This document shows, piece after piece, positions 1,258-46,554 of a DNA stretch of 47,191 nucleotides. The notes under the pieces were generated by a model that saw only the letters and a program-made list of their open reading frames with translations, searched no databases and was not told where the DNA came from. The DNA lies in IMG/VR virus record IMGVR_UViG_3300047328_000100, positions 1-47,191 of that record; one strand, 5' to 3'. Origin of the DNA: a virus. Made by a program: the position numbers and the translations under genes. Every line of letters starts with the position of its first letter. Position 1 is the stretch's first letter.

Positions 1258-1474
1258 TTGCCACCTTTTCCACAGCCTGAAATGTGCGCCGCGCTTCGCA
1301 CCAGTCCGAGAAATCAAACACCGTGATGGGGTGCTGCTGTTCGTGCACCCAGTCCAGCATCTCCTCCATGGCCACTCCACAGCAGCGGCGTTCCATGTCG
1401 ATCGACCGCGCCAGCTCGTCCACCGCGGACCGCTGGTAACGCAGCCCGAGCAGCACATCGCGGACAGCCGACAT
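1229..1474 (-). CDS. Small hypothetical protein between xis-like gene and integrase
   Basis: An 81-aa protein of unknown function, containing a Cys-Cys pair (residues 31-32) and a Trp/His-rich central part (DWVHEQQHP). The ATG at 1474 sits six bases after the excisionase stop codon and has a GGTGAG site; an earlier ATG at 1507 is possible but its Shine-Dalgarno-like AAGGA touches the start codon. It overlaps the integrase start by 29 nt, so it is probably co-translated with it. No family recognised. Confidence 0.55.
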   Translation of the reverse strand: MSAVRDVLLGLRYQRSAVDELARSIDMERRCCGVAMEEMLDWVHEQQHPITVFDFSDWCEARRTFQAVEKVANGSRTASTD

Positions 1475-1479
1475 GCCGC

Positions 1480-1722
1480 TCACCGGCGTCTCAGTTCTTT
1501 TCGCCATTCCTTCAACGTCCCCCAGCGAAACACGATGTACTTGCCGAGTTTGTCGCTCGGCAGATGCGGCCGGCGGCGCCCGCTCGCATGTTCCCTCACC
1601 CAGCTCACTTTCACGCGCAGCCAGGACGCGACCTCCTCCGCTGTCAGCGTGGAGTCGTCATGCAGTTTTCCCAGATCGAGAGAGTCCATATCCGTGAGGT
1701 CGCGGAACTGCCGCTTCTTCAC
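1480..1722 (-). CDS. Excisionase-like helix-turn-helix protein
   Basis: This 80-aa protein matches the pattern of the HTH_17 / excisionase family: LTAEEVASWLRV at residues 26-37 forms the first helix-turn-helix half, followed by a wing and the closing Leu-Pro...Gly-Lys-Tyr...Arg-Trp...Leu-Glu/Lys-Trp pattern (about 55-75). Such proteins bind DNA near the att site and steer the integrase toward excision, which fits its position two genes upstream of int. The start is GTG at 1722, overlapping the stop of the upstream gene by 4 nt (GTGA), a sign of translational coupling. It could alternatively be a small transcription regulator. Confidence 0.8.
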   Translation of the reverse strand: MKKRQFRDLTDMDSLDLGKLHDDSTLTAEEVASWLRVKVSWVREHASGRRRPHLPSDKLGKYIVFRWGTLKEWRKELRRR

Positions 1723-2048
1723 GACCTCGCGTTCCCCGGCAGCGGCACCCGCGACGGGGCCTTAAACGCCTTCGGCAGGACGCGCGGCAGCGTCTTCCGC
1801 AGCTTCAGCAATTCGCCGTGCAGCACCAGCACCACGGCATCCTCCTCGGATATCGGGACGCGCAGCAGCATCCCCTTCTCGCCTCCCAGGGCGTTGTACC
1901 ACTCGATCAGCGAATACAGCCGGCCACAGCTGCGGATCACCCGGCGTCGCAGGCCGAAGAACTGGTCCTGGCCGATCTTGCGATGCCCCTGGAACTGCTC
2001 CCGCAGCAGATTCAGCGCTGCCGGAAGCGGATCGGTTTCGCTCTCCAT
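1719..2048 (-). CDS. Hypothetical early phage protein
   Basis: A 109-aa protein that I do not recognise. From the ATG at 2048, which has an AAGGAGG site about ten bases upstream, it begins MESETDPLPAALNLLREQF and is mainly predicted helical, with a basic segment (GLRRRVIRSCGRLYSLIEWY) and a basic Pro-rich tail. The frame is open further upstream, but that extension is Arg/Gly/Cys-rich and looks non-coding. It overlaps the excisionase-like gene by 4 nt and lies 58 nt after the replication-like gene, so it belongs to the early operon. Confidence 0.65.
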   Translation of the reverse strand: MESETDPLPAALNLLREQFQGHRKIGQDQFFGLRRRVIRSCGRLYSLIEWYNALGGEKGMLLRVPISEEDAVVLVLHGELLKLRKTLPRVLPKAFKAPSRVPLPGNARS

Positions 2049-2106
2049 CCCAGCCGCCCTCCTTCGGCGGCAAACTTTCACGCCACACCTCACGCTGCCA
2101 GACCCG

Positions 2107-2907
2107 CTATGTCGCACCTCCGCGCCGCGTCCTCTCGCCCATCGAACGCACTTCCGCGCCCGGCGGCTTCGGTGCCACAATCTCCGCCAGAGCCTTCTTC
2201 CGGCACGCACACAAACCAGGCTCGTGGCACGTCTCGCACAACTCCGGCGGTTTCTCCGCCGCAGCGCCCGCGGGCCTGGCGCGCAGATACGCTGGCACAG
2301 TCTTGAGCCAAAGCCCGGCGGACTGCTGGCGCTTGCCCTGATGCGTCAGCAGCAGAGCGGCCCGCAGCTCGCCGTCGGTGATCGCCGGCACAATCGCAGA
2401 AGCGGCCGCTGCCAGTTTCGGCGCAACATCGGCACCCGGGTGTAGCTCCTGCACCACCGCGGCCGTCTCCGGCCAGAGCGTCTGCTGCGCTTGCGATGTC
2501 GGAGCCGGAGTCGGAGGCGTATGCGTAGTCGGCTGCTGCGGAGTCGACGCGCGAGCGTGCAAATGCGCGCAATTGTCCGCAGCAGCAGCAGGAGCCGGGA
2601 ATTTCGATGTTCTCGTCCGCTGGCCGAAATCCTGAATCTCCAGATATTGTTTGCCGCGCACCTCATAGAGGATAATCAGCGGCCTGTCGCTGGCGGTTAA
2701 TTCTGCCAGGAATTGCTTCACGTCCTCGACTGTCCGCTCCGGCCGGAGTCCGTACAGCATCGCCCGCAACAGAATAGGCTCCGCCTCATACCTGCCGAAG
2801 TCGTCCACCAGCAGTTGCAGCTTTCGGTAAAACAGCTCAGCCGCTTCCGACAGCGCATTAATGCGCAAGCTGTGGTTCAGCCCTTCGCGAATAATTCTGT
2901 TAGGCAT
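2107..2907 (-). CDS. Putative phage replication initiator (winged-helix N-terminal domain)
   Basis: This 266-aa protein begins MPNRIIREGLNHSLRINALS, followed by a compact helical domain (to about residue 110) ending in IQDFGQRTRTSKFP. That layout is typical of phage replisome-organiser proteins with a DnaD/winged-helix N-terminus, which bind the phage origin and recruit helicase. The middle is a Pro/Thr/Ala-rich linker; the C-terminal part (about 150-220) is helical and is followed by a Cys cluster CETCHEPGLCAC that may bind zinc. ATG 2907 has a GGAGG site. No helicase gene lies beside it, so it may recruit the host helicase. The replication role is inferred from domain style and position; DNA-binding regulator is the alternative. 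Confidence 0.6.
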   Translation of the reverse strand: MPNRIIREGLNHSLRINALSEAAELFYRKLQLLVDDFGRYEAEPILLRAMLYGLRPERTVEDVKQFLAELTASDRPLIILYEVRGKQYLEIQDFGQRTRTSKFPAPAAAADNCAHLHARASTPQQPTTHTPPTPAPTSQAQQTLWPETAAVVQELHPGADVAPKLAAAASAIVPAITDGELRAALLLTHQGKRQQSAGLWLKTVPAYLRARPAGAAAEKPPELCETCHEPGLCACRKKALAEIVAPKPPGAEVRSMGERTRRGGAT

Positions 2908-3203
2908 AAGCCGCCTCCGTGTGACCCGTGCGCCGGACTTCGCCGCGCTCCAGGCAAATTTTTCTCCGCCCGGCCCAGTTCCTCGCCGTCGATCCACAGC
3001 CGCGCCCGCTCCATACGAATGTCCTGCACGCGCAACACCGGAGCCTCAATTAGCTTCCGGCAGTGCTTAGCGCGCATCGCGTAGTAGCCGTAAAAGGTCG
3101 CGCCTGGTTTATCTGGATTCCTTCGCTTTCCGCGGATTGTATGCGTCTTCGTTCCGTCGAGGATGTACGGAATAACTTCGCCTTTGAAGCTATACGCGGC
3201 CAT
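2877..3203 (-). CDS. ASCH-domain protein
   Basis: The 108-aa product carries the features of an ASCH domain: an N-terminal strand with a Gly-Thr-Lys turn (ILDGTKTHTIRGKRRN, about residues 15-30) and the hallmark Lys-Pro-Gly turn before aromatic strands (PDKPGATFYGYYAM). ASCH proteins resemble PUA domains and are thought to bind RNA or modified nucleosides; one studied member is an N4-acetylcytidine amidohydrolase. The start at 3203 has an AAGGAG site. It overlaps the DUF5131 gene upstream by 14 nt and the replication-like gene downstream by 31 nt. Its role in the phage is unknown; pairing with DUF5131 suggests nucleic-acid modification or recognition. Confidence 0.7.
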   Translation of the reverse strand: MAAYSFKGEVIPYILDGTKTHTIRGKRRNPDKPGATFYGYYAMRAKHCRKLIEAPVLRVQDIRMERARLWIDGEELGRAEKNLPGARRSPAHGSHGGGLCLTELFAKG

Positions 3204-4107
3204 CTGGAAACTCCTTCCACTCGCGCCCATCCAGTAGCGCACCAGCGGCCTTCTTGCCCACCTTGATCGGACCGTCCCAGCAATTCAGCGCTTGCGGCGT
3301 AAAATCGCGAGACCCGTCCTGTTTACCCGGCAGCCACTCGCCCCACTGCTTAAACAAAAAGGGAACGCCAAACGCCTGACAGTCATCCCTAACCAGCCGC
3401 GCCCAATCGGCCGACATTGGTCTCGCGCTTGGTCCTGACTCGCCACCGCAGATCACCCAATCAAGTACCGTGGAGTCCGCGCAGAACCTGCACAAATACA
3501 ACCCTAGATTCACCGGCCCCAGTGCCGGCTCGTAACTAATGAACCGCTTCGCCGCCGGCGTCTGCAACAGCAGAGGAATGCGCGAGTCTGCCGTCGCCTG
3601 GTCTTCTACTGAAACACCCAGCCACAGGTTTGGCAGCGGCCATCGACCATCAGTATTCGCATGGCACCAATCGAAGTCGTCGGCGACATCATTGATTGCG
3701 TCAGGCGTCCGCTCGGCGGCAATGTAGTCGCGCATCCGATGAGGCCGCTTGGTGAGTATTTGAAAGGTGTGCTGGGGTGACTGCGAAATCACAGCAAAAA
3801 CTCTGTCAATGTCACGGTTACCAAGGGCCTCGTGAAACAAGTCGCTCATCGAGTTCACAAAGATGCGCCTGGGCTTGCGCCACTTCAGCGGATCACACAG
3901 GTGTTTCTTGACCAGGCCAACCTTGCCTGTCCATTTCGAACCTGACTTTGCGCGGTCGGCAAACAGGTGAAACGGCTGCCCCTCATCCGAGAACCGCGCC
4001 GCTATTTTCTCCGCATAGCAATAGCGGCACCCCTCGCTCACACGCGAACAGCCGCGAACCGGGTTCCAAGTCGCGTCGGTCCATTCAATTCCAGTCTTCG
4101 CGCCCAT
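3190..4107 (-). CDS. DUF5131 / phage Gp37-Gp68 family three-Cys protein
   Basis: This 305-aa protein starts with the family signature GIEWTDATWNPVRGC and a CysX6CysX2Cys cluster (Cys20, Cys27, Cys30; GCRYCYAE), the pattern that places DUF5131 near radical-SAM-like iron-sulfur proteins. Further conserved pieces are visible: FVNSMSDLFH (about 84-93), ILTKRP (about 116-121), LWLGVSVED and VICGGESGP, and FLFKQWGEW near the C-terminus. Length and order match the family well, so the gene looks intact. The enzymatic reaction is not established; members occur in many phages and beside other modification or defence genes. It overlaps its ASCH neighbour and the upstream small gene, so the three are probably translated together. 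Confidence 0.9.
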   Translation of the reverse strand: MGAKTGIEWTDATWNPVRGCSRVSEGCRYCYAEKIAARFSDEGQPFHLFADRAKSGSKWTGKVGLVKKHLCDPLKWRKPRRIFVNSMSDLFHEALGNRDIDRVFAVISQSPQHTFQILTKRPHRMRDYIAAERTPDAINDVADDFDWCHANTDGRWPLPNLWLGVSVEDQATADSRIPLLLQTPAAKRFISYEPALGPVNLGLYLCRFCADSTVLDWVICGGESGPSARPMSADWARLVRDDCQAFGVPFLFKQWGEWLPGKQDGSRDFTPQALNCWDGPIKVGKKAAGALLDGREWKEFPDGRV

Positions 4108-4342
4108 CCGCCTTCACCCTTTCCCAATCCGGCTCCGCCTTCACCAGGAACTCGATCTGATCCACGCCGAGATATTGCGCCCTCGCCCGCTTCTTCGCTG
4201 TCTCGATCCGGTAGACCGACAAGCGCTGGAGCACATTCACTCCGAGCAGTTCCCCGTCTGCGCCGCACTGGACAGCCTGCGCCTTCAGCCGCCGCGTCCT
4301 GTCACTGCGGGTAATCTGGACGGTCAGTTTACGAATCCGCAT
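4085..4342 (-). CDS. Small hypothetical early protein
   Basis: An 85-aa basic protein, begun at ATG 4342 behind an AGGAGG site seven bases upstream. The N-terminal half is a predicted beta-rich segment (RIRKLTVQITRSDRTRRLKA) followed by a helical second half ending in WERVKADGREDWN. It overlaps the DUF5131 start by 23 nt. No family recognised; the strand pattern could suit a small nucleic-acid-binding protein, but this is a guess. Confidence 0.6.
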   Translation of the reverse strand: MRIRKLTVQITRSDRTRRLKAQAVQCGADGELLGVNVLQRLSVYRIETAKKRARAQYLGVDQIEFLVKAEPDWERVKADGREDWN

Positions 4343-4379
4343 GGCATGCCTCCTGAACGGGTCTATGACCGTCCGCCCA

Positions 4380-4388
4380 CCCCCCCCC
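4380..4388. repeat. Nine-C homopolymer tract
   Basis: A run of nine C on the plus strand (G on the minus coding strand) lies in the short gap between the 42-aa and 85-aa minus-strand genes. It is outside the chosen coding regions but would fall in any N-terminal extension of the 85-aa gene. A second such tract (ten G) lies inside a gene at 6792-6801. Confidence 0.9.
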
Positions 4389-4395
4389 ACGCGAT

Positions 4396-4524
4396 TCATA
4401 GAAACCACATCCCCGTGCTCGACACGGTGCAGTCATCAGCCAGAATCGGAATCCCCTGTGCGGCGATTTCCTTTTCACAATGAGCCCGGCTGGCGAATTC
4501 ACCCGGGTCGCTGAAGTTACTCAT
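4396..4524 (-). CDS. Micro-protein after parB-like gene
   Basis: A 42-aa protein starting MSNFSDPGEF at ATG 4524, which overlaps the last 8 nt of the ParB-like gene. The coupled start and a composition unlike a shadow frame (mixed acidic, Cys at two places, ending TGMWFL) support a real gene, but it is too short to assign. Function unknown. Confidence 0.45.
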   Translation of the reverse strand: MSNFSDPGEFASRAHCEKEIAAQGIPILADDCTVSSTGMWFL

Positions 4525-6223
4525 CGGCGTATTCCTCGCTCCCGTCAAAGTCTTCCTCGAAGTCTTCCTCGACATCGTTGGCCGCCGCGCGCTTGGCATC
4601 GGCTACGGGAGCAGCCTTCTTTCGTGCTTTCGTGCCTTCTTCCTTGCCAAACGAAGCGGTGAGGGTTTTCTCGATGGCCTTGGCATCCAGCCCAAACACC
4701 TTCGCTGCCTCTGCCAGGCGCTCATCCAGCTCTTCGTAGCAGTCGTTCTTCATGGCTAGGAGGCACATCGCCACCATCGCCTTGCCGAGGTCCTCTTCGG
4801 AACAAGCCTCCAGGCGAGACACAAAGGCATCCTGGGCGGCCTGGTAGCCAGCCGGTCGCGGCAGATCGCCCAGTCCCACCAGTTCTGCCGCCTCAGGCAG
4901 ATTACCCGCGCTCGCGAGTTCGCCCGCAATCAGCAACCACTCACGCCGGCCCAGCTTCTTGGGCACCTTCGCCAGGATGCCCTTCACCAGAGAATCGGCA
5001 ACCGCCTCCACCATGTCGCGCTTGCGACGGCTTTCGTCCGCCTGGGCATTCAGCGCACTGCTGCGCGATGACGATCCGCCCGCTGGCTTGCCCATGTGCT
5101 GTTTGCACTTCTGGTTCGCGCAAATGTCGAACTGCGCACCGACGTTATCACCGACCACCACCACCGCACGTTGCGTGTGCGGGCAGCGGTCACTCTTCGA
5201 CACCTTCGCGTAAGCACCATAACTAGGCAGGCACTTCAGTGCTTTCTCGTCAGCGTCCGAGATATACGATGTCGCTACACGCACCAGCGGAGTGCCCTGC
5301 TTCTTTGCTGCCTTCTCGGCCTGGATCAGGTAAAGCTTCCGCTTACTGTCAAAACACACGGCGTCCAGGCAGTGATCCGTCTTCTCGGCCTCATCAAACA
5401 ACAGCGGGCTCGCTCCGGTGCGCTTTGTGCAGCTTGCGCACGAGCCGGCTGCCTCATCCAGGTTCGCGTCCATCAGATCCCAGGGAGCCGACTGGAGAGA
5501 CAGAAAAAACTCAGCGCGAACAATGCCCTCGAACTCTTTTGCCGTGCGAGGCCGGTCATAAACCGGAAAATAGCCATACTCGTCGCCTTCTCGCGAATAG
5601 TCCGAGGCCCAGGCCTGCCGGAGCGCCCTCCCTTGAGACGCCGGTTCCAGGCGCGCCAGGACGCTGTAATGTTCCAGCGTCAGCCTGCCCTCACAGTAAG
5701 CCTCCTTCGCTTCAGGAATCAAAGCCGCCAGCTTGAGCCGCCGCTGCACGTACCGGTCCGACTTGCCGATCTTCTCCGCCAACTGCTGCACGCTCGAGCC
5801 ATGCTGCTGCACCAGCTTCAGAAACGCTTCGCCTTCCTCCAGCGGGTGCACGTCTTCACGGTTCGCATTTTCGATGCACATCACCTCGAGAACGTCCTTG
5901 TCACTCATCTCGCGGATGAGCGCTGGGATGCGCGTCTGGCCGGCCATCTCGGACGCGCGAAACCGCCGCGCCCCGCAGATCAGCTCATAGTCATGGAGCG
6001 CTTCCGGCCTCGTATGCCGGCGGACAATCACCGGTTCAATCACGCCATGCTGCCGGATGCTCTGCGCCAGCTCCTGCAGCTTGTCGGGATCAAAGCGCTT
6101 TCTCGGATTCGCCTCGGATTCCGAGATCCGGTATAGCGGCAAGAGTTGGAAGGTGTCCTCTGAAGGAGACGGCGGCGGCGCGCCGTTAGCGCCCGGCGCT
6201 TTGTTTATAGCGGCGGTTCTCAT
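4517..6223 (-). CDS. ParB/Spo0J-family protein with Cys-rich C-terminal extension
   Basis: A 568-aa protein whose N-terminal part is a clear ParB/RepB/Spo0J domain: NPRKRFDPDKLQELAQSI (39-56), the nucleotide-binding box GARRFRA (84-90), and IENANREDVHPLEEGEAF (117-134), followed by a helix-turn-helix region (about 143-165). Beyond residue 250 it carries a Cys cluster (Cys262, 265, 285, 290) and later CPHT/CANQKC cysteines that may bind zinc, then a helical tail ending in a very acidic stretch. ParB proteins are CTP-dependent DNA clamps in plasmid and chromosome segregation; in phages, relatives act in partition, regulation or DNA processing. No parA neighbour is visible, so classical partitioning is not supported. 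It lies one base after the upstream gene. Confidence 0.85.
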   Translation of the reverse strand: MRTAAINKAPGANGAPPPSPSEDTFQLLPLYRISESEANPRKRFDPDKLQELAQSIRQHGVIEPVIVRRHTRPEALHDYELICGARRFRASEMAGQTRIPALIREMSDKDVLEVMCIENANREDVHPLEEGEAFLKLVQQHGSSVQQLAEKIGKSDRYVQRRLKLAALIPEAKEAYCEGRLTLEHYSVLARLEPASQGRALRQAWASDYSREGDEYGYFPVYDRPRTAKEFEGIVRAEFFLSLQSAPWDLMDANLDEAAGSCASCTKRTGASPLLFDEAEKTDHCLDAVCFDSKRKLYLIQAEKAAKKQGTPLVRVATSYISDADEKALKCLPSYGAYAKVSKSDRCPHTQRAVVVVGDNVGAQFDICANQKCKQHMGKPAGGSSSRSSALNAQADESRRKRDMVEAVADSLVKGILAKVPKKLGRREWLLIAGELASAGNLPEAAELVGLGDLPRPAGYQAAQDAFVSRLEACSEEDLGKAMVAMCLLAMKNDCYEELDERLAEAAKVFGLDAKAIEKTLTASFGKEEGTKARKKAAPVADAKRAAANDVEEDFEEDFDGSEEYADE

Positions 6224-31147: not shown

Positions 31148-32065
31148 TCAGTACCGATACCAGGCCTGCAGCGTCTCGCCCGTGCCTGGAATGGCAACGG
31201 TCAGAAACGTGATGGTCGCCCCGCTGATCGTGTAGTCGATGCCCAGCTTCTGAATCAGCCCGTTGCGCGTCAGTTGCAGTGAACTGCCCGCTGGCGTGTG
31301 GTTCAAAGTGAACGCGGAGTTTGTCCCGTTGATCGTCCCGCTGGGCACTTCCGCATCCGAGTAATTGAAGCTGGCGGAAGATCCCGTGTAGCGGTACCAG
31401 GCCTGCAGCAGATCGCCAGTCGCCGGAATCGTGCCCGACACAAACGTCAACGTGGCACCGCTCAGCGTGTAGTCGAAGCCGCCCGCCTGGAGAATCTGCC
31501 CGTTCTTCACGAGTTCGAGGCTGGCCGCCGGGCTCGGTGCGTGCGCCAGCGTAAAGGTGGCGTTCGTGCCATTCACCGAGCCGCCAGGTACTTCGGCATC
31601 GGCATACGAAGTGGAACTGGTCCCGACCGATGTCACCGCGCCAGGCGGCCCCGCAGGACCTTGCGGACCAGTCGGCCCGGCCGGAATCCCGAAATTGAAG
31701 ACCGCCGCGCTCGACGTTCCGCTGTTGTTCACGGTCGGAGTCGCACCAGCCGCCAGCGCCGTGGCCGTTCCCGCTGCAATCGTCGCCGCCGCGCCGGCCG
31801 GACCCACGGGACCAGGCAGGCCGCTTCCCGGACCCGCTACCACCAGCAGCGAGAATCCCGCCGGCCAGACTCCGTTTGCCCTCGGGCCGTAAATGTTGTA
31901 AGCCGACGCGTCGAGGTAGAAATCGCCATCCGTACCCAAGGAATTCGCCGGCGCGCCGTTACCGTGCCAGATGGTGTTGACGGAATGGGGAAGAGTCTGG
32001 AGCTGGCTAGTCTGCGCCGCCATTGGCAGCCAGACCGCCAGGAGCAATGCGAAGCAACGAAGCAT
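31148..32065 (-). CDS. Collagen-like fibre protein with signal peptide and two tandem repeats
   Basis: A 305-aa protein. Residues 1-18 form a classical secretion signal (MLRCFALLLAVWLPMAA before Gln-Thr). Then follows a GDFYLDASAYNIYGPRANG segment often found in phage fibres, two short collagen-like Gly-x-x stretches (about 82-93 and 130-142), and two tandem beta domains (155-226 and 235-305) with the same pattern YADAEVP/YSDAEVP ... LQAWYRY. Collagen and tandem beta units are typical of trimeric fibres; the signal peptide is not expected in a cytoplasmically assembled virion. ATG 32065 has AGGAAG. Confidence 0.7.
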   Translation of the reverse strand: MLRCFALLLAVWLPMAAQTSQLQTLPHSVNTIWHGNGAPANSLGTDGDFYLDASAYNIYGPRANGVWPAGFSLLVVAGPGSGLPGPVGPAGAAATIAAGTATALAAGATPTVNNSGTSSAAVFNFGIPAGPTGPQGPAGPPGAVTSVGTSSTSYADAEVPGGSVNGTNATFTLAHAPSPAASLELVKNGQILQAGGFDYTLSGATLTFVSGTIPATGDLLQAWYRYTGSSASFNYSDAEVPSGTINGTNSAFTLNHTPAGSSLQLTRNGLIQKLGIDYTISGATITFLTVAIPGTGETLQAWYRY

Positions 32066-33548: not shown

Positions 33549-34472
33549 CTAAGCGCTCGGCGCTCCCGCCACGCCAAAGAAGCCATTCCAGCCGCAGCTA
33601 AAGCGCATCCAGCCGGCCGTCTTCATCGACCGGCTCTCAAAATCCACGCCATGAACGGTGTTGAACGCTTCCCGGTCATACCAGCGAAGCTCGCACTCTT
33701 CCGGAGTCGCCTGCACATACCAGGCATGCGGATCGTTCAAGTAGTCCCACACCATGGCATTCTCGAACGTTCCGAAGCCCATATCCTGGCGGAACGCGTT
33801 GATTGCGCGATTCGCGGTGTCGGGGCGGTCCATGCCCTTTAACTGCTCAGCCGCCACAAAGGCCAGCTCGGGCGGAACAATCAGCGTCTTGGGAACAATC
33901 CGCTGACGAAGCCCGCGATGGTTGACCGTGCGGCGCATCAGCGTGATGATCTGGCGAATGCTATCCACATCGGGATCCGCCGCGATCGCCAGCATGTTGC
34001 TCTGCACGCCGCCACCGATCAGAGGGTGCGCCGTGGAGAAGAGCGGCACACCGTCCGGACCGGGGAACGTGGAGTCAAAGCCCCTGTTGAAATTGTAAGC
34101 AGCAGTGATCTCGCGCGTCTCATGCGCCGAGCGGCCGAGTTCGACGGCCAATTTTTTGATGACGCCAAACTGATCGTCGTCCATCGAGATCTTGCTGACC
34201 TTAAAGCCCATGCCATATTGCAGGTGCAGATAGGTCTTGCGGAATCCGGGCAGCGGCGTGTCGTACCGCACGCCCACACCTTCGCCCACCACCGGAACGG
34301 TGCCGAAGCCGGTCACTTCGGTGGTCTGTTCAATCGACCGCGATGATTTTTTCATGCGGTAGACCTGCTGAAACTGCGCCGGGAATTGCGCGTACTTGGT
34401 CATGATGACCTCGTCCAGCGCGGGCAGCATCGAGGTCAGGTTTAAATCGGGGAGTAACTGTCTGACAATCAT
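33549..34472 (-). CDS. Major capsid protein (HK97-fold, Mu gpT-like)
   Basis: A 307-aa protein with the marks of gpT-like coat proteins: an N-terminal region with GFGTVPVVGEGVGVRYDTPL, the spine-helix part QFGVIKKLAVELGRSAHETR, the signature PLFSTAHPLIGGG (about residues 144-156) and a C-terminal P-domain with TLIVPPELAFVAAEQL and WYVQ...EECELRWYDREAF. These proteins form the icosahedral shell. Neighbours are a decoration-type gene upstream and a second capsid-like gene downstream. The scaffold gene lies about 4.7 kb upstream in the operon, further than usual because of the inserted secreted-type genes. Confidence 0.8.
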   Translation of the reverse strand: MIVRQLLPDLNLTSMLPALDEVIMTKYAQFPAQFQQVYRMKKSSRSIEQTTEVTGFGTVPVVGEGVGVRYDTPLPGFRKTYLHLQYGMGFKVSKISMDDDQFGVIKKLAVELGRSAHETREITAAYNFNRGFDSTFPGPDGVPLFSTAHPLIGGGVQSNMLAIAADPDVDSIRQIITLMRRTVNHRGLRQRIVPKTLIVPPELAFVAAEQLKGMDRPDTANRAINAFRQDMGFGTFENAMVWDYLNDPHAWYVQATPEECELRWYDREAFNTVHGVDFESRSMKTAGWMRFSCGWNGFFGVAGAPSA

Positions 34473-35197: not shown

Positions 35198-37585
35198 CTA
35201 GTTCGTGATGATAGGCAGAGTCGGCCTGCGGTTGGCCTGCGCGTCCACCGGTCCGATCGCTTTGCCGTCCATCGCGCACGCGCCCGCAAACTGCGGGTTG
35301 CTCGGAATGTGGCCCGCGAAGATCCAGTGCCGTACCGCCGTGATCGGGTCGCACGGCGACGTCGTCGTGCAGGCCGTGTCCTCGCCAATCCCATACACCT
35401 GCAGAGCGCCGTCGACCAGCATGGTGCCGATCGGCACATTGACCTTGAGCCACGTGAGCGTGTACGGCTCCCAATAGCTGTACCAGGCTCCGCTTCCGCC
35501 CGGCTGCGGAGCGGAACTGCAGCCCGCCAGCGCATAGCAGTTATAGATCAGCGTCTTGCCCCAATAGAAGCCGGTCACTGCGGAGCTCACCGTATCGCCC
35601 TGCGCATAAGTCGTCGAGGTCCAGGCCCCGCGAGACGGAGTCACATGGAGGTAATCACTGGCAAACGCCTCGATCACCCGCTTATAGTCCACGCCCGGGT
35701 CGATCGCATTATTGTCATGCTGGCCCGGCACGACCCCACTGAACGCGGAAATGTAGCCATTGGTCTGGCCGGTGCAGCCGGAGCAGGCGGTGAGCTGGGT
35801 GGCGGACGACCCTCGTCCCCAGTTGTAATCCAGGCCCGTCGCGGTTCCCGGATTGCTCACCGTCGAGGAATACAACTGGTCATCGATCTTCACGAACGAA
35901 TTCGCGTCCACCGGGTTCCACATCGTGTTGCACCGCAGCGACGTCAGCACGCCCGTATGCGACTGCGCGTTTTCATCCATCTGAGAAAAACCGAATGCCG
36001 GGTTGCCGGATCCATAGTCGGCATACCAGTAGTTGTGGTCCGCCAGCTGATAGCCAGCCCTGGAACCCGCGCTGCCAGCCGGCTCCGACCAGGAATGCGC
36101 CGAAGGGTCTGGCAGAACGATGTTGTTGTCGAACGTCATCGTATACGAGGAGCTGATCGGTACCTGCGAAATTTCGCCCGAGTCGCCCGTGTTCGCGACA
36201 GCTACCCCGAAGATGTTGTACTGCTCGGTTGTGTTGCGCGCCACCTGCCAGTCCAGAAGAACGTGCCAGTTAGACGTGGCATCGAAATTGAAGAATATGG
36301 AGTGCGTCACGTCGCCGGGCGTGTTGTACGAATTCGCGGCACTCTGGCTGGCGCCGACGAAGACATTGTTATCCGCGATCCAGGGCGTTGCGTAATCGTT
36401 CCCAATCTGCGCGTTGCCCTCCATCAGGTTGCCCCTGAACGTGACGTTCTGCATGTTGCTGACGCTGAACAGGGCGGTGTCGGATGCATTATTGATAATG
36501 ACCTTAACGCCAGAGTCCGCCGAGCCGGGGAAGCCAAGCTGGAAGTTGGCCTGGGGGAAGCCGCTCGTCACCGCCACATTCGACGGCACCGAGTTACTAA
36601 ACTTGTTGTTTTCAAGATCGAATATCTCGCTCGGCCCGTAAATCTGAGTGAGCATCGCGATGGAGCAGGCATTCAGCGTTGAGTTCGTGAGCGTGAAACC
36701 GCCATAGGTGCCCTCGTCTGAGATCGCGTAAAACCATGGCTCCGTGGCGTTGCCGCCATTCGACAGCGACATATGGGACCAGGACACGATGGGGCCATGA
36801 CTGGCCGCACCCGCGCTGAAACGCCACTTCCCGCCGCCCGACGTCGTGATACCACACGTCCCGCATGTCCCATCCGTCGCGTAAGCCCTCGACCAGCCAC
36901 TCCCGCTGCCCCCCTGATTGCCGAAGCTGTACATGTCCGTAGAGCCGCCCGACATGCTGAAATCAAACGTCAGGGTGCCGCCCGCGCTAAAGGTAATGCC
37001 CGTGCTGCGATCGCCATAGGTGTCGACTGACAACACATCGCCGCGCGCCGTGATGCTGGCCGCGATGATGATGTTGGTACTCGAACCGCCCAGCACCGCC
37101 GGTGTGCCGCCGCCGGCATTCCAGTTCAGCGTCCAGCTTGCGGTGCCGCCCGAGCACATGCTCGAAATCGCCGTTGCTCCCGCCGCGCTGTAGTAGCCGC
37201 GCAAATACAAGTAAGGTGTGCAATTGCCCGAGACGAGATGGCAGCCTAGCGCCGCGCCCGTGTTTCCATTAACGCTGGTGCCGCCGATCGACGGAGCAGA
37301 TCCGCAAGTGCCTCCCGTCGCCGAACCGGTAACGGAATACGGGTAGCTTAGATACGGCAGTTGGCCGTTGCCAAAGGTGGCGGCCGTGTCGAGCGTGAAC
37401 GTGTGCGCCGAGCCGATGATCGAGATATTGTCGCCCGCCTGCGGTGTCGTTCCGCCGCAGCTCGTCCAGTCCGAGGCCACGGCCGTCGAGAACGTAAAGT
37501 GCGCCGCCGAGTTGACGTTGAGCTGGCAGGTATTGTTCGCCAGCAGACCGCCAGCGAATAGCAAGAACAGTAATAGCTGTTTCAT
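35198..37585 (-). CDS. Secreted-type parallel beta-helix protein (tailspike-like)
   Basis: A 795-aa protein with a signal peptide MKQLLLFLLFAGGLLA, then a long Gly/Ser/Thr/Asn-rich region full of short strands (ITFSAGGTLTFDFSMSGGST, NVTFRGNLMEGNAQIGNDY) characteristic of right-handed beta helices found in tailspikes and polysaccharide lyases. About two dozen cysteines, several in CGTCG and CSGC pairs, point to disulfide bonds outside the cytoplasm. It starts one base into the stop of the upstream secreted gene (TAATG), so both are co-translated. It may be a phage-encoded cell-surface or released protein instead of a virion part. Confidence 0.65.
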   Translation of the reverse strand: MKQLLLFLLFAGGLLANNTCQLNVNSAAHFTFSTAVASDWTSCGGTTPQAGDNISIIGSAHTFTLDTAATFGNGQLPYLSYPYSVTGSATGGTCGSAPSIGGTSVNGNTGAALGCHLVSGNCTPYLYLRGYYSAAGATAISSMCSGGTASWTLNWNAGGGTPAVLGGSSTNIIIAASITARGDVLSVDTYGDRSTGITFSAGGTLTFDFSMSGGSTDMYSFGNQGGSGSGWSRAYATDGTCGTCGITTSGGGKWRFSAGAASHGPIVSWSHMSLSNGGNATEPWFYAISDEGTYGGFTLTNSTLNACSIAMLTQIYGPSEIFDLENNKFSNSVPSNVAVTSGFPQANFQLGFPGSADSGVKVIINNASDTALFSVSNMQNVTFRGNLMEGNAQIGNDYATPWIADNNVFVGASQSAANSYNTPGDVTHSIFFNFDATSNWHVLLDWQVARNTTEQYNIFGVAVANTGDSGEISQVPISSSYTMTFDNNIVLPDPSAHSWSEPAGSAGSRAGYQLADHNYWYADYGSGNPAFGFSQMDENAQSHTGVLTSLRCNTMWNPVDANSFVKIDDQLYSSTVSNPGTATGLDYNWGRGSSATQLTACSGCTGQTNGYISAFSGVVPGQHDNNAIDPGVDYKRVIEAFASDYLHVTPSRGAWTSTTYAQGDTVSSAVTGFYWGKTLIYNCYALAGCSSAPQPGGSGAWYSYWEPYTLTWLKVNVPIGTMLVDGALQVYGIGEDTACTTTSPCDPITAVRHWIFAGHIPSNPQFAGACAMDGKAIGPVDAQANRRPTLPIITN

Positions 37586-38535
37586 TAGTTGAGAGCCTGC
37601 ACCGCAACCGATTCGAAGGAGAACTGCGCGGGGGACGTGAACGTGTTCGCCGTCGGCGTCAGCAGCAGCCGGAACTGGCTGGCCGCCGCGCACGTCGGCG
37701 TGAACGTCAGGGTAGCGCTCTGATTGATACTTGCCGTCGACACAGGATTTAATGTGATCGTGGACAAGCTCGTGTAACTGGGATTGTCGGGAGACGCTCC
37801 CGCCGCCACGCACGAATACGACGCCTGCAGCGTGATCGCATGCGACGTGGTGGTATCCGCCGTCCGCCAGATCAGCGTGGCCGTCCAGCTCCCGGTCACT
37901 CCCGCCGGTACCGGGAACTGCAAGCCCCAGTTCGTAGTTGTGTTCGCCGCCGGAATCGTCCACTCGCCCTGCTGATTCGTGCTGGTGCAGGAATTGAATA
38001 CCGGCGCGTTGCTGGTCGGCACCCAGATCGCCGCGCCCGCCAGTGAAGCTTGGCACACACCAAAGGCCGCAAACGACCAGGTGCGTGTGGAACTGCCTCC
38101 CCCGCCGCCGCTCAAAGTGCCGTAGACATCCAGGCGCCCCAGCACCACATTGGCGGACTGCCCGCTCGATACAGCCGCTTGCACGGTGCCCAGCACGCGC
38201 GTCCCGGCCGCGATCGCCGCCAGGCTCGTCGCTCCGGAATCCCGGCAGTCGCTATAAGTGGACGTGCCCAGAATGACCAGGTCGCCCGGCGTCGTCGCGT
38301 TTTCAAAGATGCACGGCTGCACACCGGAGGTGGTGAGCGATACGGTGCCGTTCGAGGACGCGGAGGCTAGCGCAATACCGGCATAGATCCCGCCGCTGCC
38401 CAGCGGAGCCGCCAGGCCGGTGGTGGCATTCAGTTGCACCAGCGTGTTCGCGGGAATGGCCGTCGCGCCCACGGAATAGGTTTGCGCGGACAAACAGGCC
38501 GCGACCAGAGAAAGAAGAAGGATGAGTCTCATCAC
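37585..38535 (-). CDS. Secreted or lipoprotein-like protein coupled to the beta-helix gene
   Basis: A 316-aa protein with signal sequence MMRLILLLSLVAACLSAQTY. The VAAC at residues 11-14 would fit a lipobox, while Ala18-Gln19 (SA before QTYS) fits ordinary cleavage, so anchoring is uncertain. The mature part has a short domain with GGIYAGIALASASSNGTVSL (as in phage decoration proteins that bind head surfaces), a Gly hinge (residues about 146-150) and a beta sandwich with paired cysteines. Together with the following beta-helix gene it forms a two-gene secreted unit inside the late operon. Function unknown. Confidence 0.6.
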   Translation of the reverse strand: MMRLILLLSLVAACLSAQTYSVGATAIPANTLVQLNATTGLAAPLGSGGIYAGIALASASSNGTVSLTTSGVQPCIFENATTPGDLVILGTSTYSDCRDSGATSLAAIAAGTRVLGTVQAAVSSGQSANVVLGRLDVYGTLSGGGGGSSTRTWSFAAFGVCQASLAGAAIWVPTSNAPVFNSCTSTNQQGEWTIPAANTTTNWGLQFPVPAGVTGSWTATLIWRTADTTTSHAITLQASYSCVAAGASPDNPSYTSLSTITLNPVSTASINQSATLTFTPTCAAASQFRLLLTPTANTFTSPAQFSFESVAVQALN

Positions 38536-40247: not shown

Positions 40248-40450
40248 GCCTTCAGTAACTCTCGCGGTTCTACTTGCACCTGAAACTCATCCACCAGCCG
40301 CCTGAAGTCCGCCGCATTGCGCTGGATCTCGCTGTGGATGTACTTCCGCCGGCTCATGTCGATCACTTGCGGTTCGTTCAGAATCTCGGCCAGCGCCGCC
40401 TGGTGCAGCAGGATGTCCGAGACAATCCGCAAAATGCACGGTTTCTTCAT
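40244..40450 (-). CDS. Small hypothetical helical protein
   Basis: A 68-aa protein, MKKPCILRIVSDILLHQAAL at the start, all helical by appearance. Its ATG 40450 lies in a 4-nt overlap with the Tad2-like gene and its stop in a 4-nt overlap with the zinc-ribbon gene. Tight coupling on both sides argues for a real gene. Function unknown. Confidence 0.6.
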   Translation of the reverse strand: MKKPCILRIVSDILLHQAALAEILNEPQVIDMSRRKYIHSEIQRNAADFRRLVDEFQVQVEPRELLKA

Positions 40451-40971
40451 ACAATCTCCCAGTCGTTGGCCAGCATGTCGGACTGACTGGCCAGCCAGCC
40501 CATCAGGATCTCGCCGCTCGCGGTCTTCATGGTGATGCATGGCAGCACGTCGGCCGACCCTCCGTTGGCTCGCGCGAAATCACGGTTGGGCGTTGCCCAG
40601 AAGCAATCAAACGGGAGAGCCTTCTGGCCGCCGGAGTAGGCCAGCCACATCCCCTTACCGTTCCAGCCGCGCCGCGCCACGCGGAATCCGGACTTCAGCG
40701 CTTCGAGTGCCTGCCCGAACGGCATGTGTCCGCTCTGCACCAGCGCGTATTTGCGTTCAAAGACGTCCTTCGGATTGATGTACTCGTAGCCGTCTTCCTG
40801 CCGCACCCAGTAATCTCCGGCGCTCGGCACGTAGCGCGCCATCATCGCTTCGTGCGCTACCTTCATTTCTCCGCCCGCCAAATGGCACACCCTGGTTCCG
40901 TCCGGCAGGATTACGCTCACGGCGATAATGAGAAAAGCCTCCACAAACACAGGCTTCGCCTGATACCTCAT
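40447..40971 (-). CDS. Tad2-like (DUF2829) anti-Thoeris domain fused to a phage N-terminal domain
   Basis: A 174-aa two-part protein. Residues 83-174 match DUF2829, the family of the anti-Thoeris protein Tad2: MPFGQALEALKSGFRVARRG, WNGKGMWLAY (103-112), ITMKTASG (146-153) and the strongly conserved end GWLASQSDMLANDWEIV (158-174). Tad2 sequesters the cyclic ADP-ribose-type signal made by the TIR protein of Thoeris and so protects the phage. Residues 1-75 (YQAKPVFVEAF ... GDYWV...YEYINPKDVFERKY) resemble another small domain common in phages. The gene sits between small genes with 4-nt overlaps on both sides. Family membership is by pattern; ligand-pocket residues were not checked. Confidence 0.75.
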   Translation of the reverse strand: MRYQAKPVFVEAFLIIAVSVILPDGTRVCHLAGGEMKVAHEAMMARYVPSAGDYWVRQEDGYEYINPKDVFERKYALVQSGHMPFGQALEALKSGFRVARRGWNGKGMWLAYSGGQKALPFDCFWATPNRDFARANGGSADVLPCITMKTASGEILMGWLASQSDMLANDWEIV

Positions 40972-41243
40972 CGCTTGCCTCCCTTAGCCGACGTCGCCGC
41001 CAGCTCGCCGTCCATGATGTCAGCCAGCGATCGCACGGTCTTCAGCGCACCTAAAGCGCCCTGAGTCCGCCGCCATTTGTCCACGTCAAAAGTCTCCTCG
41101 CACACCTTGCGCTCGGTCTCAATCATCTTGTCGAGGCGGCCCAACAATAAGCGAAACGTCCGCGACTCCGTCATCGCGCGCCATTCCTGCTGTGTAATCG
41201 GTTCGCCGCGCTCCACGATGCGGAGGTTATCGATGATGTTCAT
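40968..41243 (-). CDS. Small hypothetical helical protein
   Basis: A 91-aa protein starting MNIIDNLRIVERGEPITQQE at ATG 41243. WRAMTESRTFRLLLGRLDKM and RRTQGALGALKTVRSLADIM suggest two long amphipathic helices. Overlaps of 4 nt on both sides couple it to the Tad2-like gene downstream and the membrane protein gene upstream. Function unknown; small oligomeric virion or adaptor roles are possible. Confidence 0.6.
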   Translation of the reverse strand: MNIIDNLRIVERGEPITQQEWRAMTESRTFRLLLGRLDKMIETERKVCEETFDVDKWRRTQGALGALKTVRSLADIMDGELAATSAKGGKR

Positions 41244-41905: not shown

Positions 41906-44128
41906 TCATCCTTGCCCACCTGGTCCTTGCGGCGGCTTCGCCGACGGCGGAGTACCCGCAAAAGGCTTCGGCTTAATCGGAGAAGGAACCGATCCCTGCA
42001 TCGGCATCGGCCCCGGTCCCAGATTCGCCGCCGGCGGAGGCATCATCACACCCGGCGGCAAGCCCTGCGGATTGCCCAGCCCGGCAGCCGGATTTGTTCC
42101 CAGAGCCTGCGCCTGCTGCACCGCGGCTTCCGCCAGCGCCTGCACCAGCTTCTTTTCCTGGAGCTGGTGAATGTGATCCAGGTAGTGCGATTTGAGCGCC
42201 TGCATCGCGTCGTGGTCGGAGTACTTGTCATCGGTCGCCGTCTGCAGATCCTTCATATGCCGGATCATGTGCAGCTCGTCGTTGTCCATCGGATTGACTT
42301 GGACCAGCTCGCCCTGCTGCATCAGCGCCCACTCTTCCTTCGGGTTCTTCGGCAAGTCGCCTTGCGGCGGCTCCGCCACCAGGTCCGCAAAGTTCGGATC
42401 GCCAAGCGCCTCATGCGCGTCGCGCGTGATCTTCCACAGCGCCGCCGGCGAATTGATAATCAGCGGATTCTGCAGGTCCAACTGGTAACGCGCCAGAGTG
42501 TCCTGCTTCTGTTGCTGCCGGTCCCACTGCGAAGTAGCCAGCTGCAGGTGAAAGTCATAGCGCCCGTTTCGGTCTGCCTGAGACAGAACCGAACCGCCCT
42601 TCTGCACGGGGAACAAACCGTCAGCGTCGTTCTCGGTAACACGGAAGAAAGTCTCCTCATCCCCAAACTGCCACTCCAATAACCAAAAGTGCTGGAAGAT
42701 GGCCGCATAATCCTCGCGCAGTGCCGTAGTGTCCAGCGTCATGCGCAGGTTGCCCTGCTGGATGATCGCCATCGTACCGCCTACCGTCTTCGGCGCGTTC
42801 GGCCGGTCCATCTGCCGGCCCATCTGCACATCCGACGTGCCCAGCAACCGCTCCACGTACGCCAGCAGGGACTGCTCGCGCATCGCCACCGCTTCCAGAT
42901 CGACAGAGATTTCGAGCTGCTTATAATCGCTCTGCGGATTGTCCATGGGAATCCACAAGCCAGGCCGGAGCTTGATGTCTTCCGGCTCAAACCCCTGACC
43001 AGGCCGGTAAGCACCGGGCGGACTCACAGCCAATTCCTGCCCGTCCGTGCCGAGATTGTGATTCTTGCGGATTTCGTCTTCAAGGTCGATGATCTGCGCC
43101 GGAATCCCATCGCACCAGTAGGAGCCGTCCTTCTCGTAGCTCGCTTCCACAAAAGGCCGCGGCTTCGGCGCGGCGGGGTATAACTGGCGCAAGTCCTGGA
43201 TGCCGATGACCATGTTGAGATCAGGCAGAAACCGGACCACAATGTCCGACTCGTACAACTCCCGCTTCTCGATATCGAACTCGTCCGCGTCCTTCTCGCC
43301 GCGCTTCAGTTGCCGCCACTTGCCGTACCACTCCAGCACCAGCACCGTGTTGCCCGCGGACTGCGGGTTTTCCATCGTGACGCCTTCCGCGTCGTCCTTT
43401 TCCCGCTTGATTTCATCGCCCTGATAGTCCCTCTGCGAACGCTTCGACGCCATGCGCAGGATGTCCGAGAAATTCTTTTTGATGCCCTGATAGCGGCCCG
43501 CCTCCTCGCCCATCAGCAGCGAGTTCGGCGAGATGCGGTACTTGCGAATGATCCACGAGAAATCATGCAGGGATTCCACCTGCTCCGCCGGCACAACCAT
43601 GTCATCGGGCTCCATCACGGTGAAGCCAGGTCCTTTGTAGTAGGTATGATCAGCCCAGCCCTTACTGGTCTGAAACTCGAACTTATCGATCTGCCAGGGG
43701 CAATAGGCAAACACCCGGCCATAGATGATCTTGTAAAGCTCGTACGTCAGCAGTTTGACCGTGATCTTCATGTCGTTAAACACGCGCCACGTCATGTACA
43801 GCCCGATCTTCCGGTCGTTGCGGTAATCGCTCGGGCCCACCGGCTTCGCCACGATCTCCGCGTCGTCCCCAAAGATCGCGTCGGCGTTCTGAGACCACTT
43901 CTGCTTACAGCTCCAGCGAATCACCGGAACCGGGAGATTGCTGGCGTCCTCTTCGCCCGGAGCAGATGCGCCCACCATCGCCCGCCAGCGCCTAAAGTAT
44001 TCGCGCCATCGTGCGATCCGCCGCGAGTGATCCCCCAGCGCGTTTTGGTAATCCTGCCAGACGCGCGCCCCGAGTCGGCGCTTCTCAGTTGATGACAACT
44101 TCAACTGGTAGCTCTGCTGATCAGGCAC
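41906..44128 (-). CDS. Portal protein (P22-like, short-tailed phage type)
   Basis: A 740-aa protein. Typical portal features are seen in order: an N-terminal helix (RLGARVWQDYQNALGDHSRR), ASNLPVPVIRWSCKQKWSQN, WRVFNDMKITVKLLTYELYK, a core with LYESDIVVRFLPDLNMVIG, then IPAQIIDLEDEIRKNHNLGT, PKTVGGTMAIIQQGNLRMTL and a long C-terminal helical stem that ends in a Pro/Gly-rich tail. The portal forms the dodecameric vertex through which DNA enters and leaves. Length is in the range of podovirus portals. Start GTG 44128, overlapping the upstream gene by 8 nt, with AGAGGCG before it. Confidence 0.85.
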   Translation of the reverse strand: MPDQQSYQLKLSSTEKRRLGARVWQDYQNALGDHSRRIARWREYFRRWRAMVGASAPGEEDASNLPVPVIRWSCKQKWSQNADAIFGDDAEIVAKPVGPSDYRNDRKIGLYMTWRVFNDMKITVKLLTYELYKIIYGRVFAYCPWQIDKFEFQTSKGWADHTYYKGPGFTVMEPDDMVVPAEQVESLHDFSWIIRKYRISPNSLLMGEEAGRYQGIKKNFSDILRMASKRSQRDYQGDEIKREKDDAEGVTMENPQSAGNTVLVLEWYGKWRQLKRGEKDADEFDIEKRELYESDIVVRFLPDLNMVIGIQDLRQLYPAAPKPRPFVEASYEKDGSYWCDGIPAQIIDLEDEIRKNHNLGTDGQELAVSPPGAYRPGQGFEPEDIKLRPGLWIPMDNPQSDYKQLEISVDLEAVAMREQSLLAYVERLLGTSDVQMGRQMDRPNAPKTVGGTMAIIQQGNLRMTLDTTALREDYAAIFQHFWLLEWQFGDEETFFRVTENDADGLFPVQKGGSVLSQADRNGRYDFHLQLATSQWDRQQQKQDTLARYQLDLQNPLIINSPAALWKITRDAHEALGDPNFADLVAEPPQGDLPKNPKEEWALMQQGELVQVNPMDNDELHMIRHMKDLQTATDDKYSDHDAMQALKSHYLDHIHQLQEKKLVQALAEAAVQQAQALGTNPAAGLGNPQGLPPGVMMPPPAANLGPGPMPMQGSVPSPIKPKPFAGTPPSAKPPQGPGGQG

Positions 44129-44856: not shown

Positions 44857-46554
44857 TTACATCAGTTTTCGGCGCTCTCCGCGCTCATCCTGTTTGTCGA
44901 TGCGCCGCCGTGAACTGCTAACGGGCAAAGTCTTTTTCTGCCGGCGCGGCATCTCCGCGATCCCCACACACGCCAGCGCCAGCGCAATCACCAGGTCGTC
45001 GTGGCAGCCGAATTGATGCTCCGCCCTCCCGTTCGGCTTGATCACAAACGTTCTTAGCTCGCTCAGCGTCAGCGGATCGTGAATCAGGATACTCATCTGC
45101 CGCAGCGCCTCATCCAGCAGCGAGATCATTTGCGGCCTGGTCACCAGCGTCGTCTTGAAGCCGATCAAATCGCTTCGCATGCCCGGATCCTGATCGGGCG
45201 CCTGGATCCGGTGATAGACAAACGCGGGCGGGTAGCCTTTGGCCAGTAGCGAATCGATCGCCGCCAAGCCCGGTCCGTTGGCCTCGGGAATAATGCCGGC
45301 CCAGTGGTAGTAAATGCCGAGCATGTAGAGCTGCCACCCGAACTCCGCCGGCGTCGCGCGCGCCCGGTACCGCGCCACTTGTTCGCCCGTGTCGCGGTCA
45401 AAGACATGCGCCACCGACCAGTCGGGATCCGCTTTGCCCTTCCCGTTATTGACGTCGATCCCTTCCGAAACGTCCGCAGCCACAATGTACTCGCGGTTCT
45501 CCTGAGGCCTGCGATACATCGCAATGTCGCCCTTGTCGCGCGGCGTAAATACCAGCTTCTTCGTCCCGGCCAGGTCGAGCATCTCCAGGCCGCCCTCAAT
45601 CGCTTCCCGCACCACCGGCATGCGCGAGATCGACGCATGGTCGAACCGCGGCCGCCCCGATGTCAGGAACGCTTCCTCCGGGTTGCTCGGATATTCCTGC
45701 CGGAAGAGGTCCTCATCACCATTGAGGTCCGTGTGGATCTTGCGGCGCCGCCACGCCAACTGCTCCAGCGTCAGGTTGTAGCTTTGTCGAAGGTCGCGTT
45801 CGGCGGGTGTCAGTGAGCGCTCGAAGGCATCGCGCGGCACATCCAGCGCCAGCACATATTCGGGATGCTCCTGCCAGCCAAAGAAGTACGGGATCCACTC
45901 GCTCTCCCCGCTTACAGCCCTCTGCCACATGATGTGGAATTCGTTGCCGACGCCGTTGGCTGTGCTCTCCACAATCGCTTCCGTATCGGCATCTCCCGGC
46001 ATGGCGGAAGTCACCGCGCCCATCAGTGTTCTGGCCAGGTCCCCGTAAAACGCAAACTCAGAGAAATGCACCCGCCGAAGCGAAAACGACCGGCCAATTG
46101 TCGCCGTCTTGGCGGTGTGGAATTTGATCCAGCTGTCATTCGCGAAGTCGAGCTGATCCGTCCGGTCCGTCGTCCGCTTCGGCGCGCCGATTAAGCCGTG
46201 GAACGGACGGTAGTGCTCGTGGAAGCGCGAGTAGTACTGATACACGTTTCCGGCGGTGACCTCATCCTGCGCCAGCACTAAAGTGTGCTGCCCAGGCTTG
46301 TGGACCGTGTCGCGATAGAACCGACCGGCCACGTAAGTCGAGATCCACACCTGGCGCGCTTTGAGCGCGATGATGCGGACCGGCTTGCCTAGCTCGCGCT
46401 GCCGCTGAATCAGGGCGTGCAGTTTCTTTTGCGCCGGCCCCAGTTCCATGGGCACCAAGTGCCCGGCTTTGTCCAGCACCGTCAGCGACTCGCGCGCGAA
46501 CGTCTCGTCATTGTGGAAGCCTTCGTAGATGGCGTCGAGGTCTTCGGGTGTCAC
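44857..46554 (-). CDS. terL: Terminase large subunit
   Basis: A 565-aa DNA-packaging motor. The ATPase part has a Walker-A-like IIALKARQVWIST (61-73), with Trp70 where Gly is usual in KxRQxGxS versions, and a Walker-B region RVHFSEFAFYGD with Glu166 as likely catalytic residue. FRQEYPSNPEEAFLTSG (284-300) is the linker typical of terminases. The nuclease domain shows YIVAADVSEGID (Asp361), a second acidic DPDWS, and a late HDDLVIALALA with the third aspartates. The start is GTG 46554, directly behind an in-frame stop; the ribosome site (GGGTGA) is weak. First gene of the leftward late operon. Confidence 0.9.
   Translation of the reverse strand: MTPEDLDAIYEGFHNDETFARESLTVLDKAGHLVPMELGPAQKKLHALIQRQRELGKPVRIIALKARQVWISTYVAGRFYRDTVHKPGQHTLVLAQDEVTAGNVYQYYSRFHEHYRPFHGLIGAPKRTTDRTDQLDFANDSWIKFHTAKTATIGRSFSLRRVHFSEFAFYGDLARTLMGAVTSAMPGDADTEAIVESTANGVGNEFHIMWQRAVSGESEWIPYFFGWQEHPEYVLALDVPRDAFERSLTPAERDLRQSYNLTLEQLAWRRRKIHTDLNGDEDLFRQEYPSNPEEAFLTSGRPRFDHASISRMPVVREAIEGGLEMLDLAGTKKLVFTPRDKGDIAMYRRPQENREYIVAADVSEGIDVNNGKGKADPDWSVAHVFDRDTGEQVARYRARATPAEFGWQLYMLGIYYHWAGIIPEANGPGLAAIDSLLAKGYPPAFVYHRIQAPDQDPGMRSDLIGFKTTLVTRPQMISLLDEALRQMSILIHDPLTLSELRTFVIKPNGRAEHQFGCHDDLVIALALACVGIAEMPRRQKKTLPVSSSRRRIDKQDERGERRKLM

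Follow-up and report, generated by a model that had tools for sequence, protein, structure and literature searches.

A Tad2-family protein with a Dec-type OB-fold domain encoded in a phage head operon

A virus record of 47,191 bases, analysed here at its full length and called the window, encodes in its head operon a protein that joins a C-terminal Tad2-family domain to an N-terminal domain resembling the OB-fold of Dec, the capsid decoration protein of phage L. Our best reading is that of a Tad2-family sponge produced from the head operon and equipped with a Dec-type OB domain. We consider this reading, in which ligand binding, protection and capsid attachment are inferred parts, somewhat probable as a whole. 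The open reading frame runs on the minus strand, from 40971 to 40447, a strand that the earlier note on this DNA did not give. The coordinates of all features are collected in Table 1.

Table 1. Features of the window and of related loci (positions are those of the window unless a locus is named)
Feature	Position	Strand	Basis or remarks
OB-Tad2 fusion gene	40447..40971	minus	174 aa; open reading frame with Pfam, PDB and PHROG matches; AF2 full-length pLDDT 75
Tad2-like domain, residues 83-174	40450..40725	minus	PF11195, VIA-align, motif alignment
N-terminal domain, residues 1-82, Dec-like OB-fold	40726..40971	minus	Profile, AF2, Foldseek, VIA-align
ATGA stop/start overlap with upstream gene	40968..40971	minus	Sequence
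GGGAGG, putative ribosome-binding site, 6 bases 5' of ATG	40978..40983	minus	Sequence
ATGA stop/start overlap with downstream gene (40244-40450)	40447..40450	minus	Sequence
Large terminase TerL	44857..46554	minus	phrog_2, 1.7e-22
Portal/connector-like protein, 740 aa, upstream in operon	41906..44128	minus	Weak phrog_332 connector match, 9e-5; position after TerL
Scaffold-like acidic protein, 239 aa	39149..39868	minus	Name from position and composition
Major head protein (MCP)	33549..34472	minus	Phage_capsid_4, 1.8e-11; phrog_371, 3e-17
Signal-peptide-like N terminus, late operon	37585..38535 (ORF)	minus	MMRLILLLSLVAACLSAQ
Signal-peptide-like N terminus, late operon	35198..37660 (ORF)	minus	MKQLLLFLLFAGGLLANN
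Signal-peptide-like N terminus, late operon	31148..32065 (ORF)	minus	MLRCFALLLAVWLPMAAQ
Integrase, DUF5131 and ParB genes at record end	1..6223	minus	DUF5131, 7.6e-95; ParB, 4.5e-26
SPO1 pair	L319:5122-5391 and 7489-7767		Tad2 gp34.65 and OB gp34.82
Cpn10/GroES-like gene between portal and Tad2	L050:5431-5826, L045:5583-5990, L390:5570-5986		
Phage_gp49_66	L050:6354-6797, L045:6300-6611, L324:5236-5613, L083:2854-3177, L039:3400-3990, L146:1501-2052		
Tandem Tad2-like pairs	L058:6001-6793, L066:2878-3559		Second copy divergent

Residues 83-174 match the complete Tad2-like profile (PF11195, profile positions 1-73 of 73; E = 7.5e-25 and 87.7 bits, where the cut-off is 25), which bears out the earlier assignment of a DUF2829/Tad2 domain to exactly this span. 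In a phmmer search of the PDB, only Tad2 or AcrIIA7 proteins are matched, namely SptTad2 (8wjd, 3.9e-17), HgmTad2 (8kbi), AcrIIA7 (9kzr), ModTad2 (9eib) and SPO1 Tad2 (8sme). Similarly, Tad2 or AcrIIA7 chains fill ranks 1-24 when the full-length AF2 model is searched with Foldseek, and VIA-align gives Z scores of 8.2-9.5 and rmsd values of 2.2-3.4 over 72-94 aligned residues with SptTad2, ModTad2, SPO1 Tad2 and HgmTad2. The residues that are invariant in 40 relatives are all kept (F85, G86, A88, G95, R100, G102, W103 and N104, and further along G105, G107, M108, W159, D165, L167, D170 and W171), and a motif alignment finds nearly all of them in SPO1, Spt, Hgm and ModTad2 as well. With the ligand pocket located as described for Tad2 (PMC12043709), a residue identity check shows that the loop and helix motif residues building it are kept. 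In the C-terminal stretch GWLASQSDMLANDWEIV, two positions are different from HgmTad2. The fold, the full-length domain and the GWNGKGM and W..SQ.D..A.DW motifs are thus held in common with SPO1 gp34.65, SptTad2, HgmTad2 and ModTad2, whereas the protein of the window adds a Dec-like N-terminal domain of ~80 residues, is encoded in a head operon, has GMW for GMF and carries an insertion of intermediate length.

On these grounds, the C-terminal domain most likely captures a TIR-made signal of the ADP-ribose type (gcADPR or His-ADPR), and its capture would keep the Thoeris effector off. It is quite unlikely that the Tad2 fold is aimed instead at the cyclic dinucleotides of CBASS, or that it acts as an AcrIIA7-like anti-CRISPR, rather than on Thoeris signals. 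The protein does stand near HgmTad2/AcrIIA7 and SptTad2, for which structures with cGG exist, and according to a review Tad2 binds cyclic dinucleotides via a long insertion between strands 2 and 5 (PMC12043709). However, the distance from GMF/GMW to the MKT-like strand, counted on the alignment, is 38 residues here, compared with 31 in SPO1 Tad2 and ModTad2 and 42-48 in SptTad2 and HgmTad2. Such an intermediate length is not diagnostic, so that cyclic dinucleotide binding is not predictable from the insertion. AcrIIA7 (8kbi, 9kzr) shares the Tad2 fold and a similar sequence, and owes its name to anti-Cas9 activity.

That the N-terminal domain is a Dec-type OB-fold is well supported by profile and structure comparisons. 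A profile (A3) built from N-domains of the same type as that in the window, together with a few rows of the types A and C described below, has a sole match in the whole PDB, Dec (6e3c, E = 1.3e-4), with residues 19-91 of the Dec chain aligned to profile positions 5-77. AF2 models the domain alone with a pLDDT of 91.4 and a pTM of 0.80, and a Foldseek search with this model ranks Dec first among 350,542 chains (E = 4.8e-3, probability 1.00, 24% identity; next match 0.079). VIA-align gives a Z score of 7.1 for the pair, with an rmsd of 3.3 and 25% identity over 80 of 81 residues (next Z score 5.8). Dec is also the next match after the Tad2 chains for the full-length model, and hhalign against a Dec profile yields a probability of 94.7. 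As a control, dropping the A and C rows from the profile moves Dec to E = 0.023, compared with E = 110 for the top scorer among 2,000 shuffled Dec sequences against the same query-type-only profile; with type C alone, the value for Dec is 0.0045. Dec is found with the profile only: a PDB search with the single N-domain sequence gave nothing, and the profiles of type A and type B did not retrieve Dec from the PDB. No Pfam family exceeds the cut-off for the N-domain, and PGDYG (PF14083), tried as its family, was rejected as a weak neighbour below the cut-off. The single sequence scores are each modest, and common descent of the N-domain and the Dec OB-fold is likely.

The comparison with Dec also frames what the domain may do. 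Dec binds the coat through its OB part (residues 10-77), and its C-terminal part juts from the capsid as a trimeric spike (PMC6449081). An N-terminal OB-fold and a gene placed beside packaging and head genes are common to both proteins, but the trimeric beta-helix spike of Dec is absent from the protein of the window, where the Tad2 domain occupies its place. The capsid-contact residues K30 and Y49 of Dec (PMC6449081) are not kept in the N-domain, although the coat proteins differ and these residues need not be kept. In Kapi1 and Huey, P22-like phages with a related fusion and a coat protein 30% identical, the Dec-contacted coat residues E81 and P82 are kept while R299, P322 and E323 are not. 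The proposal in the earlier note that the protein might be packaged gains some support from the Dec-like nature of the fused domain, while the unconserved K30 and Y49 speak against a tether. Our best-supported guess is that the OB-fold would keep the sponge attached to heads under assembly, or close to them; that it tethers the sponge to the capsid we regard as possible, if doubtful. The more specific picture, in which Tad2 has been grafted on a Dec-type capsid-binding domain such that growing heads carry many sponge copies absorbing the TIR signal that they trigger, we consider unlikely. A decoration protein with a second, intracellular job is known in Psu of phage P4, which inhibits Rho (PMC7602432). 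Psu is a functional analogue only, being helical and directed at another target, and no kinship with it is claimed.

A Dec-type OB domain in a head-operon product could also belong to a protein that coats the head, with the Tad2-like part reused for another ligand or for stabilising the capsid and with no role in anti-defence. The layout of Dec, whose OB part likewise precedes a projecting C-terminal spike (PMC6449081), is in line with this alternative, which is nevertheless very improbable given that all residues invariant in the 40 relatives are kept, that most of them are also found in signal-binding Tad2 proteins and that they are likewise kept where a relative is encoded away from head genes.

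Within the window, the fusion gene lies downstream of TerL and the portal-like gene, with the major head protein gene further downstream. It shares an ATGA with the gene on either side, and GGGAGG precedes its ATG, so its translation probably takes place as part of a polycistronic block, in agreement with the run of co-translated genes described previously. The placement of the gene between scaffold and portal, as first proposed, stands as far as the head operon and the upstream portal-like gene are concerned, the latter named from a weak match; the scaffold is a name given by position and composition, as this acidic protein has no PHROG match and only a sub-threshold Pfam match to ZapB. Acidic proteins occupy the equivalent position in loci L045, L050, L055 and L390. 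The small genes neighbouring the fusion have no match over the cut-off to any Pfam or PHROG family, which speaks neither for nor against the earlier suggestion of further anti-defence genes among them, and PADLOC and NCBIfam gave no matches. Three other products of the late operon begin with signal-peptide-like stretches, which are odd in head or tail genes. Toward the far end of the record lie integrase and ParB genes, and the set of integrase, DUF5131 and ParB points to a temperate, possibly plasmid-like, phage. A closely related prophage of the window was searched for and none was found.

The lysis-TerS interval of P22-like phages is a common site for accessory genes. This is where dec is found in phage L and ST64T, between the lysis genes and a TerS-TerL-portal-scaffold-coat block. 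The OB-Tad2 fusion of the P22-like phages Kapi1 and Huey is found between the lysis genes and TerS, like dec, and Dewey and Bas106 encode a lone OB protein there. Since the interval commonly hosts accessory genes, the shared place of dec and OB-Tad2 serves as support and not as proof.

Placement of Tad2 among late genes is a recurrent pattern beyond P22-like phages. In distant phages, with major head proteins 28-33% identical to that of the window, Tad2 lies between the portal and the head protein, in some cases joined to an OB domain and in others not. The order is portal-Cpn10-Tad2-gp49_66-scaffold-like-MCP in L045, L050 and L055, and portal-Cpn10-Tad2-scaffold-like-MCP in L390, a prophage of Phenylobacterium deserti; family matches confirm the portal in L050 and L390, Cpn10 in L045, L050 and L390, and gp49_66 in L045 and L050, with the other names given by likeness or order (gp49_66 in L055 from likeness to L050 only). 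L040 has Tad2 between the MCP and a gene of portal size, and in Ruegeria phage 45A6 the portal is followed by OB-Tad2, with a head protein 2.8 kb further. A PF05065 search for head proteins came out nearly empty. The Cpn10/GroES-like gene between portal and Tad2 is listed in Table 1 for three of these loci.

In 10 of 14 records, OB genes of the type in the window lie at most 5 kb from TerL and share its strand (4.1 expected, P = 4e-4), and the same holds for Tad2 genes in 12 of 25 (6.1 expected, P = 0.0075), with P values that are optimistic because some of the phages are related and the 5-kb limit was self-chosen. There are counter-examples. In the N4-like phage IME11 the gene lies between those for a single-strand-binding protein and the virion RNA polymerase, in Vibrio phage 44E38.1 it follows ssb, and in SPO1 a cluster of small genes devoid of head genes contains the Tad2 gene gp34.65 and, at a distance of 2.1 kb, a lone type B OB gene, gp34.82. 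Some further genes are on the strand opposite TerL. The presence of related domains in these non-structural regions (IME11, 44E38.1 and SPO1) means that an OB domain need not imply capsid attachment.

The earlier note considered late expression unusual for an anti-defence protein. This concern does not hold, given the several distant phages with Tad2 between portal and MCP and given that the trigger of Thoeris is itself late: in staphylococci and streptococci, it is the major head protein that activates the TIR proteins of Thoeris (PMC12578639). A sponge made together with head proteins would thus be timely. In the proposed mechanism, the fusion protein would be made from the head operon alongside the portal, scaffold-like and head proteins, a timing that would be accounted for by this late trigger. 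For Sau-Thoeris, the head protein itself is needed and not the assembled head (PMC12578639), so that a seat on finished capsids would not be required.

The fusion is not unique to the window. The protein is matched by 357 phage records, and a scan of IMG/VR yielded at least 595 confirmed relatives. Its two-domain layout is shared with phrog_872, a family listed without known function (residues 43-174 on profile positions 41-171 of 172), but the N-domain of phrog_872 belongs to type A, from which that of the window is distinct. Three kinds of N-domain precede Tad2 in the relatives, and Tad2 also occurs alone or with other extensions. Type A (YIGTK...GYVSWSP) is mostly fused to Tad2, type B (KPVTVEAVQ...PGDWI...PCKPDIFEATY; 808 phage records) is mostly alone, and type C carries the motif SHK...DGYxSxSP. 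The type found in the window (KPVxVEA...GDYWVxQxDGYxYxNPKDVFERKY) is usually a lone protein of ~80 residues; it is closest to the mostly lone proteins of loci L086-L123, and among 38 loci only L097/L098 and L102 have Tad2 behind it. Type A and the window type are related (hhalign of profiles A3 and A4, probability 98.5), and type B matches the window type with a probability of 91.0 over 30 columns (A3 and A5).

Tad2 sponges are known as free proteins. The protein of the window could likewise be a free cytosolic sponge as in SPO1, with the OB part serving as a generic accessory domain that has nothing to do with the capsid (one that aids oligomerisation or solubility, or that contacts a host factor) and the late position being a mosaic accident in a cargo-rich spot. 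Several observations are consistent with this rather unlikely alternative: the OB-type domain is widespread and in most cases stands alone, as type B illustrates; fusions of it to Phage_gp49_66 and, judged by fold, to MazG also exist; the lone OB and Tad2 genes of SPO1 sit in a cluster without head genes; and L390 and L040 fill the late slot between portal and MCP with a stand-alone Tad2, which shows that the OB part is not needed for that slot. Against it stand the frequent position of the window-type OB gene beside TerL on the same strand and the fact that the best structural relative of the OB domain is a capsid protein, Dec.

Other associations of these domains were also observed. Phage_gp49_66 (PF13876, no known function) adjoins Tad2 in L045, L050, Huey and phage Y3, is fused to Tad2 in L039 and is fused to the OB domain in L146, which makes it, by association, a candidate counter-defence or head-associated protein. 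The OB-type domain is joined to MazG-like pyrophosphohydrolases in Vibrio phage vB_VpaS_KF6 (BFVD A0A384WK77) and Microbacterium phage Casey (H151), and these attachments suggest that it is a general phage fusion partner of nucleotide-handling domains. Tandem Tad2-like pairs with a divergent second copy occur in L058, L066 and G013 (the record of L014); in L058 the second copy reads GWADEIKLV where GWNGKGM is expected.

Neither Tad2 nor Dec nor the two-domain layout is new, each being already known or listed; the new part is the Dec-type identity of the N-domain. No literature linking Tad2 to a decoration-protein domain was found in a search of mostly open-access papers, which is no proof of absence; the sole paper found to mention both Tad2 and a decoration protein concerns stand-alone Tad2. 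The Dec-type OB-fold is a first structural label for a small domain of "unknown function" in hundreds of phages. These observations suggest that counter-defence can be coupled in timing, and perhaps also in location, to the protein by which TIR immunity is set off, and that some phages may keep an anti-immune sponge on or near the head under construction.
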